Assembly (NCBI GenBank): GCA_026196275.1 | Contig: JAPHTQ010000055.1 | Location: 1 to 51,026, forward strand | Origin: Gammaproteobacteria bacterium | GTDB taxonomy: Bacteria > Pseudomonadota > Gammaproteobacteria > Thiohalomonadales > Thiohalomonadaceae | Length of the DNA: 51,026 nucleotides | Direction: 5' to 3' | Shown: positions 1 to 44,802 of the stretch, piece after piece | Layout: each line of letters starts with the position of its first letter | Position numbering within the stretch: position 1 is the first letter of the stretch | Program-made: the position numbers and the translations under genes | Notes under the pieces: model-generated | What the model saw: only the letters and a program-made list of their open reading frames with translations | Told to the model about the DNA's origin: nothing | The model's database searches: none

Positions 1-945
1 CTGTCAGGTCTGCTCGCCATCACCCTGCTGATTGGCGGTCTGATCGTGCTGGTGCTGGACCTGGGCCGTCCTGAGCGACTCATCGTGGCGATGACCCACT
101 ACAACTTCAAGTCGATCTTCGCCTGGAATATCATCCTTTATAATGGTTTCATCGCGCTGGTTGCGGTTTATCTGTGGACGATGATGGAGAAGCGCATGAA
201 CCGCTACACCCCTGTAGCCGGTTTCTTTGCCTTCATCTGGCGCCTGATCCTCACCACCGGTACCGGTTCCATCTTCGGTTTCCTCGTTGCCCGTCAGGGC
301 TACGATGCAGCCATCATGGCACCGATGTTCGTGGTCATGTCCTTCTCCTTTGGTCTGGCTATCTTCCTGCTGGTGCTGATGGCCACCTATCGGATGACCG
401 AGCGTCCACTGGGCGATGCCCTTCTTAAGCGTCTGAAGAACTTGCTGGGTGTCTTCATTGCCGGGGTACTCTACTTCGTCGCCGCCATGCACCTGACCAA
501 TCTCTACGCCACCGAGCACCATGGCGTCGAGCGCTTTATCCTGATGGACGGTGGTATCTACACCACACTGTTCTGGTTCGGATACTTTGTACTCGGTACC
601 CTGGCGCCGCTGGCCCTGCTCTATCATCCAGCCACCGGTATGAAGCGCGGTGCTATCGCCCTCGCCTCTGCACTGGTGGTTCTCGGCGGTTTTACTCTGG
701 TATACGTCATCGTTATCGGCGGCCAGGCCTATCCGCTGGTAATGTTCCCGGGGTATGAAGTGGTCAGCAGCTTTGAGGGGGCAGTGAACTCCGAGTTCTA
801 TGCCTACAGCCCGACGATCTATGAGTTCCTGCTCGGACTCGCCGGTGTCGCGCTGACCCTGGCCATGACCACGGTCGCGGTGAAGAACCTGCGCTTCCTG
901 CCGGAGAGCCTGGCAGATTCAGAGGTCGATCCGCACAGCAAGTAA
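1..945 (+). CDS. dsrP: DsrP, membrane subunit of the DsrMKJOP complex (5' end outside window)
   Basis: This is the C-terminal 314 residues of an NrfD/PsrC-type polytopic membrane protein. The frame is already open at base 1, so the start lies upstream. About eight hydrophobic segments are visible, separated by short polar loops, with a charged tail ending in HSK. In the dsr system, DsrP is the quinone-interacting membrane subunit of the DsrMKJOP electron-transfer complex, which links cytoplasmic sulfur oxidation to the periplasm and quinone pool. The NrfD family is broad, and the specific DsrP call rests on dsrN and dsrR following on the same strand, as in Allochromatium vinosum (dsrP-dsrN-dsrR). 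A strong terminator follows 27 bases after the stop. Confidence 0.88.
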   Translation: MSGLLAITLLIGGLIVLVLDLGRPERLIVAMTHYNFKSIFAWNIILYNGFIALVAVYLWTMMEKRMNRYTPVAGFFAFIWRLILTTGTGSIFGFLVARQGYDAAIMAPMFVVMSFSFGLAIFLLVLMATYRMTERPLGDALLKRLKNLLGVFIAGVLYFVAAMHLTNLYATEHHGVERFILMDGGIYTTLFWFGYFVLGTLAPLALLYHPATGMKRGAIALASALVVLGGFTLVYVIVIGGQAYPLVMFPGYEVVSSFEGAVNSEFYAYSPTIYEFLLGLAGVALTLAMTTVAVKNLRFLPESLADSEVDPHSK

Positions 946-972: not shown

Positions 973-1011
973 AAACACCGATGCACCGCAAGGGCATCGG
1001 TGTTTTGTTTT
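973..1011 (+). terminator. Rho-independent terminator after dsrP
   Basis: A perfect 12-bp stem (973-984 with 994-1005) closes a 9-nt loop and is followed by TTTTGTTTT. It should end the main dsr transcript at dsrP, so the following small gene, dsrN and dsrR would need their own promoter. Confidence 0.92.
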
Positions 1012-1023
1012 GGGTGTAAATTT

Positions 1024-1151
1024 TCACCATGAAGCACACGAAGATGAAAGATTCAGTATAGATGGAAGCTATGAGCCGGCTGTCTGCTTAATCATTCCAG
1101 GCCAATATGGATAAGCCGGCCCAATTGTTACTTCGTGCTCTTCGTGGTTTC
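1024..1151. repeat. Dispersed inverted-repeat element, CACGAAG subtype (element 1)
   Basis: The left arm near 1024-1050 carries degenerate units (TGAAG, CACGAAG, TGAAAG). The right arm at 1130-1150 carries the complementary CTTCGTG and CTTCGTGG units. About 80 nt of unrelated sequence separates them. It is the most degraded two-armed member of the family. It occupies most of the 310-nt gap between dsrP and the next gene, whose only other visible contents are the dsrP terminator and a possible promoter near 1170-1198. Confidence 0.6.
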
Positions 1152-1198: not shown

Positions 1199-1255
1199 GG
1201 GAGTTTGAACCGCTGCAATGTGCGCGACAGATCAGACAAATTCAGAGGTGGTGGC

Positions 1256-1504
1256 ATGAGCCAGCAAGAACACGCATTCGCACAGTACGTACGCATCCTC
1301 GGCAAGGGCCGCAACGGCTCGCGCGGCCTGGCCGCCGTCTGGCGCGGCGAGAATAGCGATGAGTACGGCGAAGCCGCGGTGATCGGCACTGTCGCCATCG
1401 CCCTCTACACCATGGGCAAGGCCGAGAACCGTGAAGAGGCCGAGGCGCAGGCCCGGACCATGTGGGCCGTGCGCGACAAGGCCCGCTTCGCCAGCGCCGC
1501 CTGA
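1256..1504 (+). CDS. Small 82-aa protein upstream of dsrN, resembling the N-terminal helical domain of TrpD-type phosphoribosyltransferases
   Basis: The start at 1256 follows the purine-rich stretch GAGGTGGTGG. The stop is separated from the dsrN ATG by one base, so the two genes are almost certainly co-translated. The residues FAQYVRILGKGRNGSRGL near the N-terminus recall the opening of TrpD/TrpD2 (YbiB-like) proteins, and the following Ala-rich helix could complete a Glycos_trans_3N-like bundle. No phosphoribosyl-binding or catalytic domain follows, so it would be a free-standing helical domain. This resemblance is from memory, not a search. No signal peptide or membrane segment is visible. 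Its position suggests a role with DsrN in cofactor or sulfur metabolism, but the function is unknown. Confidence 0.72.
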   Translation: MSQQEHAFAQYVRILGKGRNGSRGLAAVWRGENSDEYGEAAVIGTVAIALYTMGKAENREEAEAQARTMWAVRDKARFASAA

Positions 1505-1505
1505 T

Positions 1506-2942
1506 ATGCCCCATCTGCTGTTCAGCGCCGCGCACAAATCCTCCGGCAAGACCACCATTACCCTGGGGCTTTGTGCCGCGCTGGCTCACGCCGGTCTGCG
1601 TGTCCAGTCCTTCAAGAAAGGGCCCGACTACATCGACCCGATGTGGCTCGGCCGCGCCACCGATCGCCCCTGCTACAACCTCGACTTCAACACCATGTCA
1701 CGCCCGGAGATCAGTGACTTCTTCGCCCGGCGCAGCGATCAGAGTGATATCGCCCTGATCGAGGGCAACATGGGCCTGTTCGACAGCCTCGATGTGGAGG
1801 GCAGCCAGAGCAACGCCGAAATGGCCAAGCTGCTGCAGGCGCCGGTGGTGCTGGTGCTCGACGTCAAGGGGGCGACGCGCAGCATCGTGCCCGTGATACA
1901 GGGGTTTCAGCAGTTCGATCCGGAGATGAAGCTCGCCGGCGTGATCCTCAACAAGGTGGCCGGCAAACGCCACGAGTTGCGCCTGCGCGAGGCGATCGGG
2001 TACTACTGCGATATCCCCGTACTGGGGGCTATCCACCGCGACCCGCGGCTCGCGATCGATGAGCGTCACCTGGGCCTCATTCCCAGCAACGAGGCCGAGG
2101 CCGTCAATAGCAAGCTGGATCAGGTTCGCGAGATCGTCGCATCACAGGTCGACCTCGAGGCGCTGCAGCGGATCGCTGCCGATGTCCCGGCCCCACAGGT
2201 AAAAAGCGCTCCAGTCGAGGCTGAGGAGCCCGGGGAGCGGGTACGCATCGCCATCGCCCGCGACAACGTCTTCGGTTTTTACTACCCCGATGACCTGGAG
2301 GCGCTGCAGCGCAACGGTGCCGAACTGGTCCCCTTCGACGCTCTCCACGCTCCCGCCCTGCCCGAGGCCATCGATGGGTTGCTTATCGGCGGCGGTTTTC
2401 CCGAGACCCAACTCAAGGCGCTTGAGGCTAACACCGGCCTGCGCGAGAGCATCCGCGAAGCGATTGAGACCGGCCTCCCCACCTATGCCGAGTGCGGCGG
2501 CCTGATGTACCTCAGCCGCTCCATTACCTGGCAGGGAGAGTGTGCGCAGATGGTCGGTATCGTTCCCGGAGACTGTGTGATGCACGAAAAACCGGTGGGA
2601 CGAGGCTATGCCCGAATCGTCGAAACCGGCCTTGGCCCCTGGCCGCAAAGCCAATCCGGCCGGCGCATGCAGGTACATGAGTTCCACTACTCCAGTCTTG
2701 AAAACCTGCCGGATAATCTCCAGTATGCTTATAAGATGGAGCGTGGCTATGGCATCAAGGACGGCCGGGATGGTTTTATCTACAAAAACCTCTTGGCAAA
2801 TTACGTCCACCTGCGTGATGTGCAGGGCAACCACTGGACCCGACGCTTTATCGACTTTGTACGGGCCTGCCGCGGTCACACCTTGCCCTATGCCGCGCCG
2901 GAACGCACGGGGGATACGACATTTCTTCCCCCCTTTATGTAA
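1506..2942 (+). CDS. dsrN: DsrN, CobB/CbiA-like siroheme amidase
   Basis: This 478-residue protein resembles cobyrinic acid a,c-diamide synthase. An N-terminal ATP-binding domain has a P-loop-like AAHKSSGKTT at residues 8-17 and the KKGPDYIDP segment typical of CbiA. The C-terminal class I glutamine-amidotransferase-like domain has LLIGGGFPE and the nucleophile region YAECGGLMYL. In dsr clusters DsrN is known as the enzyme proposed to amidate siroheme for the dissimilatory sulfite reductase. The start at 1506 was chosen because the family begins directly at the P-loop strand; longer frames run into the preceding gene. It sits 18 bases before dsrR. CobB proper is the alternative, but no cobalamin genes are nearby. 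Confidence 0.88.
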   Translation: MPHLLFSAAHKSSGKTTITLGLCAALAHAGLRVQSFKKGPDYIDPMWLGRATDRPCYNLDFNTMSRPEISDFFARRSDQSDIALIEGNMGLFDSLDVEGSQSNAEMAKLLQAPVVLVLDVKGATRSIVPVIQGFQQFDPEMKLAGVILNKVAGKRHELRLREAIGYYCDIPVLGAIHRDPRLAIDERHLGLIPSNEAEAVNSKLDQVREIVASQVDLEALQRIAADVPAPQVKSAPVEAEEPGERVRIAIARDNVFGFYYPDDLEALQRNGAELVPFDALHAPALPEAIDGLLIGGGFPETQLKALEANTGLRESIREAIETGLPTYAECGGLMYLSRSITWQGECAQMVGIVPGDCVMHEKPVGRGYARIVETGLGPWPQSQSGRRMQVHEFHYSSLENLPDNLQYAYKMERGYGIKDGRDGFIYKNLLANYVHLRDVQGNHWTRRFIDFVRACRGHTLPYAAPERTGDTTFLPPFM

Positions 2943-2960: not shown

Positions 2961-3314
2961 ATGATTACACTGACCGAAAAAGCAATTGAACAGGTAAAGA
3001 GCGCTGCGGAGCAGAGTGAAGCTGTTGGTCTGGCACTGCGTCTGGCGGCGAAAAAGAACCAGGATGGAAGTATCGAGTATGGCATGGGCTTCGACGAGGC
3101 CAAGGATGATGACCTGCTGTTCAAGTTTGATGATGTGGAGGTGGTATTTAGCGGTGAGTACGGCCCGCTGCTCAACGGCACTACCATCGACTTTGTGGAA
3201 CTGGAGCCTGGAAGCTGGAACTTCATCTTCATGAATCCCAATGACGCCAACTACCACCCCCCGGGAAGCGAGCAGGGCGACTGCGGTTCCGGCGGTTGCA
3301 GCTCCTGTAACTAA
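2961..3314 (+). CDS. dsrR: DsrR, A-type (IscA-like) scaffold-related protein
   Basis: The 117-residue protein has the A-type carrier fold: the opening MITLTEKAIEQVK, the LALRLA strand and a C-terminal FMNPNDANY segment where IscA has its NPN motif. The first IscA ligand cysteine (Cys35 in E. coli) is absent here, and A. vinosum DsrR is known to lack the canonical cysteines. Unusually, the extreme C-terminus carries three cysteines (C108, C113, C116) in a Gly/Ser-rich tail after a PPGSEQG linker. These do not match the IscA CGC spacing. The start has a good ribosome-binding site (AAGGAATTAAAGG region). In A. vinosum dsrS follows dsrR; here it is replaced by a two-component pair. Confidence 0.86.
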   Translation: MITLTEKAIEQVKSAAEQSEAVGLALRLAAKKNQDGSIEYGMGFDEAKDDDLLFKFDDVEVVFSGEYGPLLNGTTIDFVELEPGSWNFIFMNPNDANYHPPGSEQGDCGSGGCSSCN

Positions 3315-3455: not shown

Positions 3456-5108
3456 ATGGGCATGATAACCAACACATCTCAGCAAGGCCGTCTTCAGCGG
3501 ATGCTGGATGCACTCACCTCCCTTTTGCTGCTAAGCGGTGAGGGACTGCCAGGCAGACGGCTGCGTTTTTTGTTGATCGGCGTCGGCAATACCTTTGCCC
3601 TGCTGGGACTCAATCTCGCTCTCCTGCTCCACTTTCCCGAATACGAAAATATCCTGCTATTCCTGTTCGGCGTCTTTATCCTCGCCGGCGTAGGCCTTCT
3701 GTTCGCCATCTCCCTCGCCTTTCGCCGCTATCTGCTGCACCCCAGTGAAGAACTCAAGCACTGGTCGGATGAGATCCGCGAAGGCAATCTGGCGATCCGC
3801 CTGAACCCCGAGGAAATGGGTGGACTCACGGAAGTGTCCAAAGACATCAATAATCTGTTGGGGTACCTGCAAAATCTCTCCAGCCATATGGATGATGAGA
3901 TCAAGCGCCAGACCAAGCGTTTCGAGCAGAAAACCAACTCCCTGCAGGTGCTCTATGATGTGGCTGCCAGTCTCAATGCCTCGCGCGACCTCAAGGATCT
4001 GCTGACCCGCTTTTTGCACACCATGCGCGACATCGTCAACGCCAAGGCGGGGACCGTACGACTGCTCACCGAGAACAACATGATGGAGCTGGTGGCCAGT
4101 ATCGGTCTAACGGAGGCGGTGATCGAGGAAGAACGCATGGTTCCGGTACAGCGCTGCCTCTGCGGTAATGCGGTTACCGAGGGTGAGGTCCTGTTCCAGC
4201 AGGATCTGACCCCCTGCACCCAGTGGGTTGGGCAACCCCTGCTCGGGGATACCGGCCTGGAGATGATCGCCGTACCGCTGCAGTATCACGGCAAGAACCT
4301 GGGGGTATATAACCTGTTCGTGGAGAAGGCCGACATCGACTCCCGTGAGGAGGTCAAGGCCCTCTTTACCAGTATCGGTCGCCACCTGGGTATGGCCATC
4401 GAAAAAGCACACCTGGACGACGAGGCCAAGCGTCTCTCCATCATCAAGGAACGGAACGCCCTGGCCCATGAACTGCATGATTCGCTGGCGCAGACCCTGG
4501 CCAGTCTGCGCTTCCAGGTAAGCATGCTGGATGAGGCTATCGACCAGCAGGGGGCGGATGTCACTCATGAGGACATCCAGCAGATCAAGAGCGGGCTGGA
4601 TGAGGCCTATACCGAGCTGCGCGAACTGCTCGCCCACTTCCGCGCGCCGATCAACTCCCGCGGTCTGATCCCCGCCCTGGAGGACCTGATCAGCAACTTC
4701 CGTAAGCAGACCGGGATGCACGTGTTACTGCAAAAGGAGTGGGACTCCACCCGCTTGCCGGCCAACATGGAGATGCAGGTACTACGCATCATCCAGGAGG
4801 CACTGGCGAATGTACGCAAGCACAGTGACGCCCATACGGTGCGTGTCATGCTGCGCTGCGACAGGGACGGGAATTACCATATCCTGGTCGAGGATGATGG
4901 TGTCGGAATGGACAAGCCGGCATTCAGCGGTCACCCCGGAGAGCACCTTGGTCTGTCGATCATGAAGGAACGAGCCCGTTATCTTGGTGGCGAGTTGCGC
5001 ATCGAGAGTGAATCCAGCGAGGGAACAAGGGTACAATTAACCTTCCACAGCTCGGACGGCAGCACCGGTTCAAAGAACAAAGAGCCACAGCACTTCGCCC
5101 TGATTTAA
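3456..5108 (+). CDS. NarX-like sensor histidine kinase lacking the periplasmic sensor domain
   Basis: The 550-residue kinase has two close transmembrane helices (about residues 38-58 and 64-88) joined by only a few residues, so there is no periplasmic nitrate-binding domain. A HAMP region (about 88-140) and coiled coil follow. Next is a GAF-like domain (about 155-305) with cysteines C234, C236 and C254, recalling the cysteine-containing central module of NarX. HisKA_3 has HELHDS with the likely phospho-acceptor H341. HATPase_c shows EDDGVGMD and GLSIMKERA. The signal is therefore probably sensed in the cytoplasm, perhaps redox through the cysteines; that is inference. It overlaps no neighbour and the regulator gene follows 12 bases later. 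Proximity to dsr genes makes sulfur or electron-acceptor control plausible. A second ATG at 3462 is possible. Confidence 0.85.
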   Translation: MGMITNTSQQGRLQRMLDALTSLLLLSGEGLPGRRLRFLLIGVGNTFALLGLNLALLLHFPEYENILLFLFGVFILAGVGLLFAISLAFRRYLLHPSEELKHWSDEIREGNLAIRLNPEEMGGLTEVSKDINNLLGYLQNLSSHMDDEIKRQTKRFEQKTNSLQVLYDVAASLNASRDLKDLLTRFLHTMRDIVNAKAGTVRLLTENNMMELVASIGLTEAVIEEERMVPVQRCLCGNAVTEGEVLFQQDLTPCTQWVGQPLLGDTGLEMIAVPLQYHGKNLGVYNLFVEKADIDSREEVKALFTSIGRHLGMAIEKAHLDDEAKRLSIIKERNALAHELHDSLAQTLASLRFQVSMLDEAIDQQGADVTHEDIQQIKSGLDEAYTELRELLAHFRAPINSRGLIPALEDLISNFRKQTGMHVLLQKEWDSTRLPANMEMQVLRIIQEALANVRKHSDAHTVRVMLRCDRDGNYHILVEDDGVGMDKPAFSGHPGEHLGLSIMKERARYLGGELRIESESSEGTRVQLTFHSSDGSTGSKNKEPQHFALI

Positions 5109-5120
5109 TAACGAGAACGC

Positions 5121-5771
5121 ATGCAAGTATTACTCGTAGACGACCACACCCTTTTCCGCAGCGGCCTTGAAACCCTGCTTGAACGACACGGTATCGAGGT
5201 CATTGCCACAGCCGGAAACGGCCGTGAGGGCTTCCTTATGGCCCGTGAGCTGCAGCCCGATGTCATCCTGCTCGACATGCGGATGCCGGAGATGAGTGGC
5301 CTTGAGGTTCTCTCAGGGCTGCGCGCCGTCGGTTTTCGCAACCCCATCGTCATGCTCACCACCAGTAATGAGGAGCAGGATCTGGTCGAATGCCTGCGCA
5401 ACGGCGCCTCGGGCTACCTGCTCAAGGACATGGAACCGACCGAATTGGTGAACGCCCTGCGGGATATAGTGGGTGGCAAAACCATCGTCGCTCCCGAACT
5501 GGCTGCCGTGCTGGCACGTGTGGTGCAGGGCGATGTCGAGGAGATACTCAACAAGGAGGTCAATCCGTTTGCTGAATTGACGCCGAGGGAACTGGAGATC
5601 CTCTGTCTGCTTGCCGAGGGTCAGAGCAACAAGGTGATCGCCCGCAACCTCGGCATATCGGACGGCACCGTGAAACTACATGTCAAGGCGATCCTGCGCA
5701 AACTCAATGTGCACTCCCGTGTCGAAGCCGCCGTAATGGCCGTGGAACAGAACTTCTGCCATAAGGATTAA
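5121..5771 (+). CDS. NarL/FixJ-family response regulator
   Basis: The 216-residue protein has a receiver domain with acidic pair D7-D8, phospho-acceptor D52 in LLDMRMPEMSG, T80-T81 and K102. A C-terminal LuxR-type helix-turn-helix follows (LTPREL...GQSNKVIARNLGISDGTV). It is the obvious partner of the preceding NarX-like kinase, 12 bases upstream, and resembles NarL throughout. Its target promoters cannot be read from this window. The next gene starts three bases after its stop, so all three are probably one transcript. Confidence 0.92.
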   Translation: MQVLLVDDHTLFRSGLETLLERHGIEVIATAGNGREGFLMARELQPDVILLDMRMPEMSGLEVLSGLRAVGFRNPIVMLTTSNEEQDLVECLRNGASGYLLKDMEPTELVNALRDIVGGKTIVAPELAAVLARVVQGDVEEILNKEVNPFAELTPRELEILCLLAEGQSNKVIARNLGISDGTVKLHVKAILRKLNVHSRVEAAVMAVEQNFCHKD

Positions 5772-44583: not shown

Positions 44584-44802
44584 TCACCACAGAGACACGG
44601 AGAACACAGAGGGATTTATTAACCACGAAGAACACGAAGGGCACGAAGGGCACGAAGGTGTTGTTATGGTATGCATAAGCAAGTTCTGAATCAGCCACTA
44701 CATCACCATGTGGCCAGAGCTGCATAAAGTCTTTCCTTCGTGTACTTCGTGTACTTCGTGGTAAACAGCTTTTCTCTGTGTTCTCCGTGCCTCTGTGGTG
44801 AA
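44584..44802. repeat. Nested dispersed inverted-repeat element, CACAGAG outside and CACGAAG inside (element 10)
   Basis: Outer arms 44584-44613 and 44774-44802 are CACAGAG-type. Inner arms 44621-44657 and 44735-44762 are CACGAAG-type, the left inner arm having four CACGAAG units at 9-nt spacing. Each left arm pairs with the right arm of its own subtype. The central loop is about 77 nt. It fills the 253-nt gap between the carboxylase operon and maf, with no other gene visible. Confidence 0.93.

Follow-up and report, generated by a model that had tools for sequence, protein, structure and literature searches.

A short open reading frame upstream of dsrN as a probable in-frame remnant of a dsr-linked TrpD2-type gene

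TrpD2-type proteins and the clade linked to dsr genes

YbiB of Escherichia coli, the defining member of the TrpD2 family, is described in PMC10123104 as a DNA-binding protein and partner of ObgE, for which Arg92 and Arg123 are reported to be important, and as the product of a gene in a LexA-regulated operon with dinG. Here we consider an open reading frame of 82 codons that lies directly before dsrN in a stretch of 51,026 nucleotides of gammaproteobacterial DNA (hereafter the window), as well as the full-length TrpD2-type proteins with which both of its ends align. These belong to a dsr-linked clade of NF006564 (PRK09071, annotated as "glycosyl transferase family protein"), which shares with the short frame the slot upstream of dsrN. 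For the alignment and profile scans, 21 of 23 full-length proteins were used; all 21 match both NF006564 and PF02885, and 20 match PF00591. The model of the 333-residue protein of one relative (G015, row L004; pLDDT 92.6) aligns in VIA, over nearly its whole length, with TrpD (1khd, Z 32.1), YbiB (4muo, Z 31.1) and the YbiB of Salmonella (Z 31.5). TrpD, anthranilate phosphoribosyltransferase, is a PRPP-dependent transferase marked by a glycine-rich GTGGD loop; the full-length relatives share its fold but lack this loop, and the whole stretch is deleted in the window. They resemble YbiB both in fold and in the motif at their start (LGKGxxGSR and IGRGKNHAR, respectively), but differ in genomic setting, since ybiB shares its LexA-regulated operon with dinG (PMC10123104), whereas the dsr-linked gene precedes dsrN. 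By our reading of an alignment, the groove residues Arg92 and Arg123 of YbiB correspond to Lys95, which stands beside the invariant Arg96, and to the invariant Arg127; unlike in YbiB, these positions are deleted in the window.

In a tree of 64 proteins the 26 dsr-linked ones cluster far beyond chance, with 4 label changes against 20.4 in shuffles, and 25 of them fall into one group of modest support (81/85), only L132 standing outside. The same group holds two rows not seen beside dsrN, one on a 3.6-kb contig (L123) and one in G003 (L099, 2309-3334). The latter gene adjoins dnaE, and no dsrN was found in the genome of this family member. Relocation of the gene at the time of dsr loss is a possibility, although the genome is only 78% complete. 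Three genomes (G202, G226 and G103) each carry a dsr-linked copy together with another copy. Among the tree rows outside the dsr-linked set, 14 represent PRK09071 TrpD2 genes near yccA, of the FtsH modulator family (loci L100, L101, L106, L108, L112, L114, L117 and seven more); seven of the yccA genes were identified by profile. To our knowledge, this association has not been reported. A link between TrpD2 and DsrC/TusE, suggested by the yccA neighbours, was rejected: 8 of the 14 genomes searched contain no DsrC at all, in G099, G362, G301 and G266 it is distant from TrpD2 or on a different contig, and the two occur in one region only in G007 and G053, both of which carry dsr clusters. Among 20 neighbouring genes from 17 of 20 loci, no link with a sirohaem nitrite reductase was seen.

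Two ends of one protein in an 82-codon frame

The short frame (1256..1504, plus strand, as are dsrP, dsrN, dsrR, the hairpin and the Shine-Dalgarno-like sequence described below) runs from an ATG to a TGA and is a genuine open reading frame. The initial annotation had correctly placed it a single base from dsrN (the frame ends at 1504 and the dsrN ATG is at 1506), and had correctly noticed that its start resembles TrpD2-type proteins and that the window has no catalytic domain after it. Codons 1-25 (1256..1330) encode the TrpD2 N-terminus, comprising the first helix and the LGKGxxGSRxL motif. This N-terminal stretch, FAQYVRILGKGRNGSRGL, matches the start of TrpD2-type proteins; G015 and G006 (rows L004 and L014) share 24 of the 25 residues with the window protein, and the E-value to L004 residues 1-26 is 2.5e-8. 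Codons 26-82 (1331..1501) correspond to the last three TrpD2 helices, as placed by the full-length model, with 64% identity to L004 residues 278-333; 36 of the 57 residues are identical to those of the G015 protein. In alignments with full-length relatives, the protein thus corresponds to residues 1-25 joined directly to the last 57, and the matches of L004 residues 1-26 and 278-333 lie at adjacent places in the window. An NCBIfam search with the 82-residue protein returned a single family, NF006564/PRK09071 (E 2.4e-17), the best stretch covering profile positions 282-332 of 335, that is, the C-terminus; its 62.9 bits lie below the family cut-off of 257 bits, which applies to about 335 positions, and full-length L004 scores 420.6 bits. 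Homology to NF006564 was found at both ends, in the correct order, and in a slot shared with intact copies. The match to TrpD2 is therefore beyond chance, since each half matches the one family, their order is correct, and relatives have the complete gene in this slot. The frame very probably encodes both termini of a larger TrpD2-type protein of about 333 residues whose middle was lost in frame.

The initial annotation had instead likened the product to a free TrpD N-terminal helical domain that could serve DsrN as an adaptor or substrate-binding partner. The 25 N-terminal residues do match TrpD2, but residues 26-82 are its C-terminus and not the remainder of the helical domain. PF02885 spans L004 residues 14-74 and PF00591 residues 103-319, of which the window retains what falls within 1-25 and 278-333; of the 61 residues under PF02885, only some 12 are left, and a Pfam search of the 82-residue protein gave no family at E <= 10, including PF02885 itself, a profile of 63 positions. 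Nor did the predicted structure help: the model of the short protein (mean pLDDT 72.6) had no match in Foldseek at E <= 0.001, and in VIA-align no Z reached 5, the best being 4.1 to an unrelated chain, while the TrpD rows reached at most 3.2 and spanned chain residues of about 195-336, not the N-domain. With values of this order the model is too weak to serve as proof of any fold and was set aside in that capacity. As far as tested, the short protein has neither a structural match nor a second genome, the two outcomes that the initial annotation had itself named as speaking against its proposal. A free N-terminal domain is accordingly exceedingly improbable, the adaptor or substrate-binding role finds no support, and the proposed new adaptor of sulfite reductase can be struck off.

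Gene loss between dsrP and dsrN

The slot was surveyed in 95 relatives, searched with the 82-residue protein and for dsrN. The query matches in 33 of them, in most cases as two pieces of a single open frame of 312-377 codons, residues of about 1-27 at its start and about 24-82 at its end. Apart from the window, frames of other length occur in G013 (61 codons) and G019 (44), both cut by contig ends, and in G077 (236), which by its coordinates extends to the contig end; there are also two weak single matches, in G038 and at a second place in G006. Matches to dsrN at E <= 1e-40 were found in 47 of the 95, and 40 were counted as DsrN, window included: 37 at E <= 1e-100 and the partial or split G012, G064 and G086. 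The seven left out gave only weak matches (31-38% identity), resembling CobB paralogues. A full-length trpD2 lies directly upstream of dsrN in 17 of the 40 (its first codons cut by a contig end in G002), in the order dsrP-[trpD2]-dsrN-dsrR; its C-terminus stands at a contig edge before dsrN in two more (G013 and G019), and dsrP takes its place in 16. Four are without verdict (G093, G051 and G063, where the stretch fetched held no dsrP, and G086), and the short form precedes dsrN in one, the window. Conservation of the gene before dsrN, which the initial annotation had proposed to check, hence applies to the full-length family gene in 17 relatives and not to the short form.

Within the window's own family, 16 of 20 genomes searched gave matches. 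In this family, G005 and G010 have dsrP followed by dsrN with no trpD2 between; their genus-mates G013 (a piece) and G016 (the whole gene) retain it, and the complete loss indicates a slot prone to gene loss. Three-frame translations of the dsrP-dsrN interval, read by eye in 11 genomes without trpD2, contained no remnants of the gene. A sample across the class gave matches in 53 of 369 genomes, and neither among these 369 nor among the 95 relatives was the short form found outside the window's genome (G000). Shorter or cut frames in the class sample are G077, G303, where the match begins at contig base 2, and G323, whose pieces of 290 and 75 codons on different contigs are tentatively read as contig splitting.

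In the window, the deletion junction is a leucine codon, CTG (1328..1330), to which Leu25 and Leu277 of the full-length protein both align. Relative to L004, 252 codons (26-277) are missing in frame, and thus, of some 333 residues in the dsr-linked clade, the short protein lacks most of the helical domain and the alpha/beta core. It is plausible that CTG stood at both ancestral breakpoints, and 8 of 15 relatives have CTG at each site. G013, the nearest relative by DsrN although cut by a contig end, reads ISDL instead of SRGL at the junction point, and therefore does not have the window's junction. A full-length gene of the PRK09071/NF006564 subfamily would once have stood between dsrP and dsrN, and the loss of about 756 bp from its interior, without a shift of frame, would have left the present sequence. 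TrpD2 function has probably been lost in this copy, which retains neither the bulk of the helical domain nor the alpha/beta core nor the YbiB-type arginine positions. In this sense the short frame is a case of ordinary gene decay.

That the deletion belongs to the organism, and not to its assembly, has to be considered, since a contig that misjoins the two ends of an intact gene would look the same, and the short form is indeed confined to one genome, assembled in 88 contigs. However, the deleted middle was not found on any other contig of this assembly, which is 99% complete; the genome contains only the two TrpD2 ends, an ordinary, genuine TrpD gene as a separate gene on contig C59, and one sub-threshold chance match on C37. 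The junction is moreover in frame and inside a 51-kb contig, and loss of this gene from the slot is demonstrated by G005 and G010, where it is wholly absent, so that an assembly or strain artefact is very unlikely. The retained parts, in turn, look well preserved. All 16 residues that are invariant in the 21 full-length proteins and fall within these parts are kept, and the divergence of the C-terminal part matches the expectation set by DsrN (mean residual +0.024, spread 0.065, 17 pairs); since this part has diverged no faster than that, no decay is shown at the sequence level. A recent deletion fits this result, and selection on the short protein would do so too. Fusion of the first helix with the last three could conceivably have yielded a small bundle of helices that has kept or gained a binding role beside dsrN, and the model does contain four helices, with blocks within 41-70 at pLDDT 85-89. 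Against such a selected mini-protein stand the low mean pLDDT, the values of 57-69 over the first 30 residues, the lack of a convincing fold match, and its occurrence in one genome only, owing to which selection on it is not measurable. We consider it very unlikely, and retain the in-frame remnant of a TrpD2-type gene as the reading of the frame.

Translation of dsrN and the wider dsr locus

The window begins within dsrP (1..945), which encodes an NrfD-type membrane protein matching PF03916, and NF045798 (DsrP) below its cut-off. The 310 bases between dsrP and the remnant contain a hairpin followed by a T-rich tract (974..1012; fold z-score -4.53), which resembles a terminator and was missed by the consensus scan because the scan allows loops of up to 8 bases and the loop here has 9. 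By eye, a similar hairpin follows dsrP in G005 and G010. A consensus scan of 900-1600 found no sigma-70 promoter. The remnant is followed by dsrN (1506..2942), a CobB/CbiA-type amidase with the Pfam domains CbiA and GATase_3, and by the IscA-like dsrR (2961..3314), which matches TIGR00049 below cut-off and has homologues after dsrN in relatives. Given the hairpin and its T-rich tail, the remnant, dsrN and dsrR look like a unit apart from dsrP. Upstream of the remnant lies a Shine-Dalgarno-like GAGGTGG (1245..1251; anti-SD duplex -8.2 kcal/mol), and dsrN has no such sequence of its own (+1.2 kcal/mol). The short frame would thus still be translated from its strong Shine-Dalgarno sequence, and ribosomes ending at its stop may re-initiate at dsrN one base later. 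The probable role of the surviving remnant is that of a translational lead-in to dsrN, and dependence of the dsrN start on re-initiation after an upstream frame would account for the persistence of the remnant in frame and for the toleration of an in-frame deletion. In g6 and g8, two close genera, the gap between stop and dsrN is 3-8 bases and the Shine-Dalgarno sequence weak or absent (+1.3 to -2.5); in other relatives the gap is 2-64 bases. A dsrN without Shine-Dalgarno sequence also occurs in several genomes without trpD2 (L071, L075, L077 and L081), and coupling is therefore not the sole route to the dsrN start. In these four, the dsrN ATG is preceded at a distance of a few bases by a TAnACTGC sequence, noticed by eye, which looks like a sign of leaderless transcripts.

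More interesting than the short frame is a by-product of this analysis, the clade of full-length genes, which indicates that many gammaproteobacterial sulfur oxidisers conserve a gene at this place between dsrP and dsrN. In the portions of the literature covered, including PMC5445326, PMC6397845 and PMC11406059, no TrpD2-type or glycosyl-transferase gene is named in dsr clusters. The available part of the dsr table of Thiohalobacter FOKN1 (PMC6934394) gives DsrP as FOKN1_1956 and DsrN as FOKN1_1958, with 1957 absent from the rows between, and we infer that this locus is a dsr-linked TrpD2 gene. As a tentative suggestion, the clade might be an unrecognised accessory of reverse-Dsr sulfur oxidation, acting with DsrN in siroheme amidation or regulating dsr genes via nucleic-acid binding, dispensable and repeatedly lost, with the window remnant still serving dsrN as translational lead-in or mini-protein. 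If the clade has a Dsr role, the natural losses in G005, G010 and the window's genome offer ready comparisons.

Several further features of these loci may be mentioned. A CTTCGTGNNCTTCGTGG-like motif occurs in seven copies where 0.09 are expected, in two clusters of the window (1027-1147 and 44623-44761) that include inverted pairs; the interval from dsrP to the remnant thus contains a repeat element. In L093 (G064, 734-2070), dsrN is split into two parts (residues 1-217 and 227-454), which may reflect a frameshift in the gene or an error of sequencing. After dsrR, the window encodes a histidine kinase and a LuxR-type regulator (3456-5771), named from reading the sequence, and this pair is a possible regulator of dsr genes; the kinase also lies 3' of dsrR in G005, G013, G010 and G019, accompanied by the regulator in G019.
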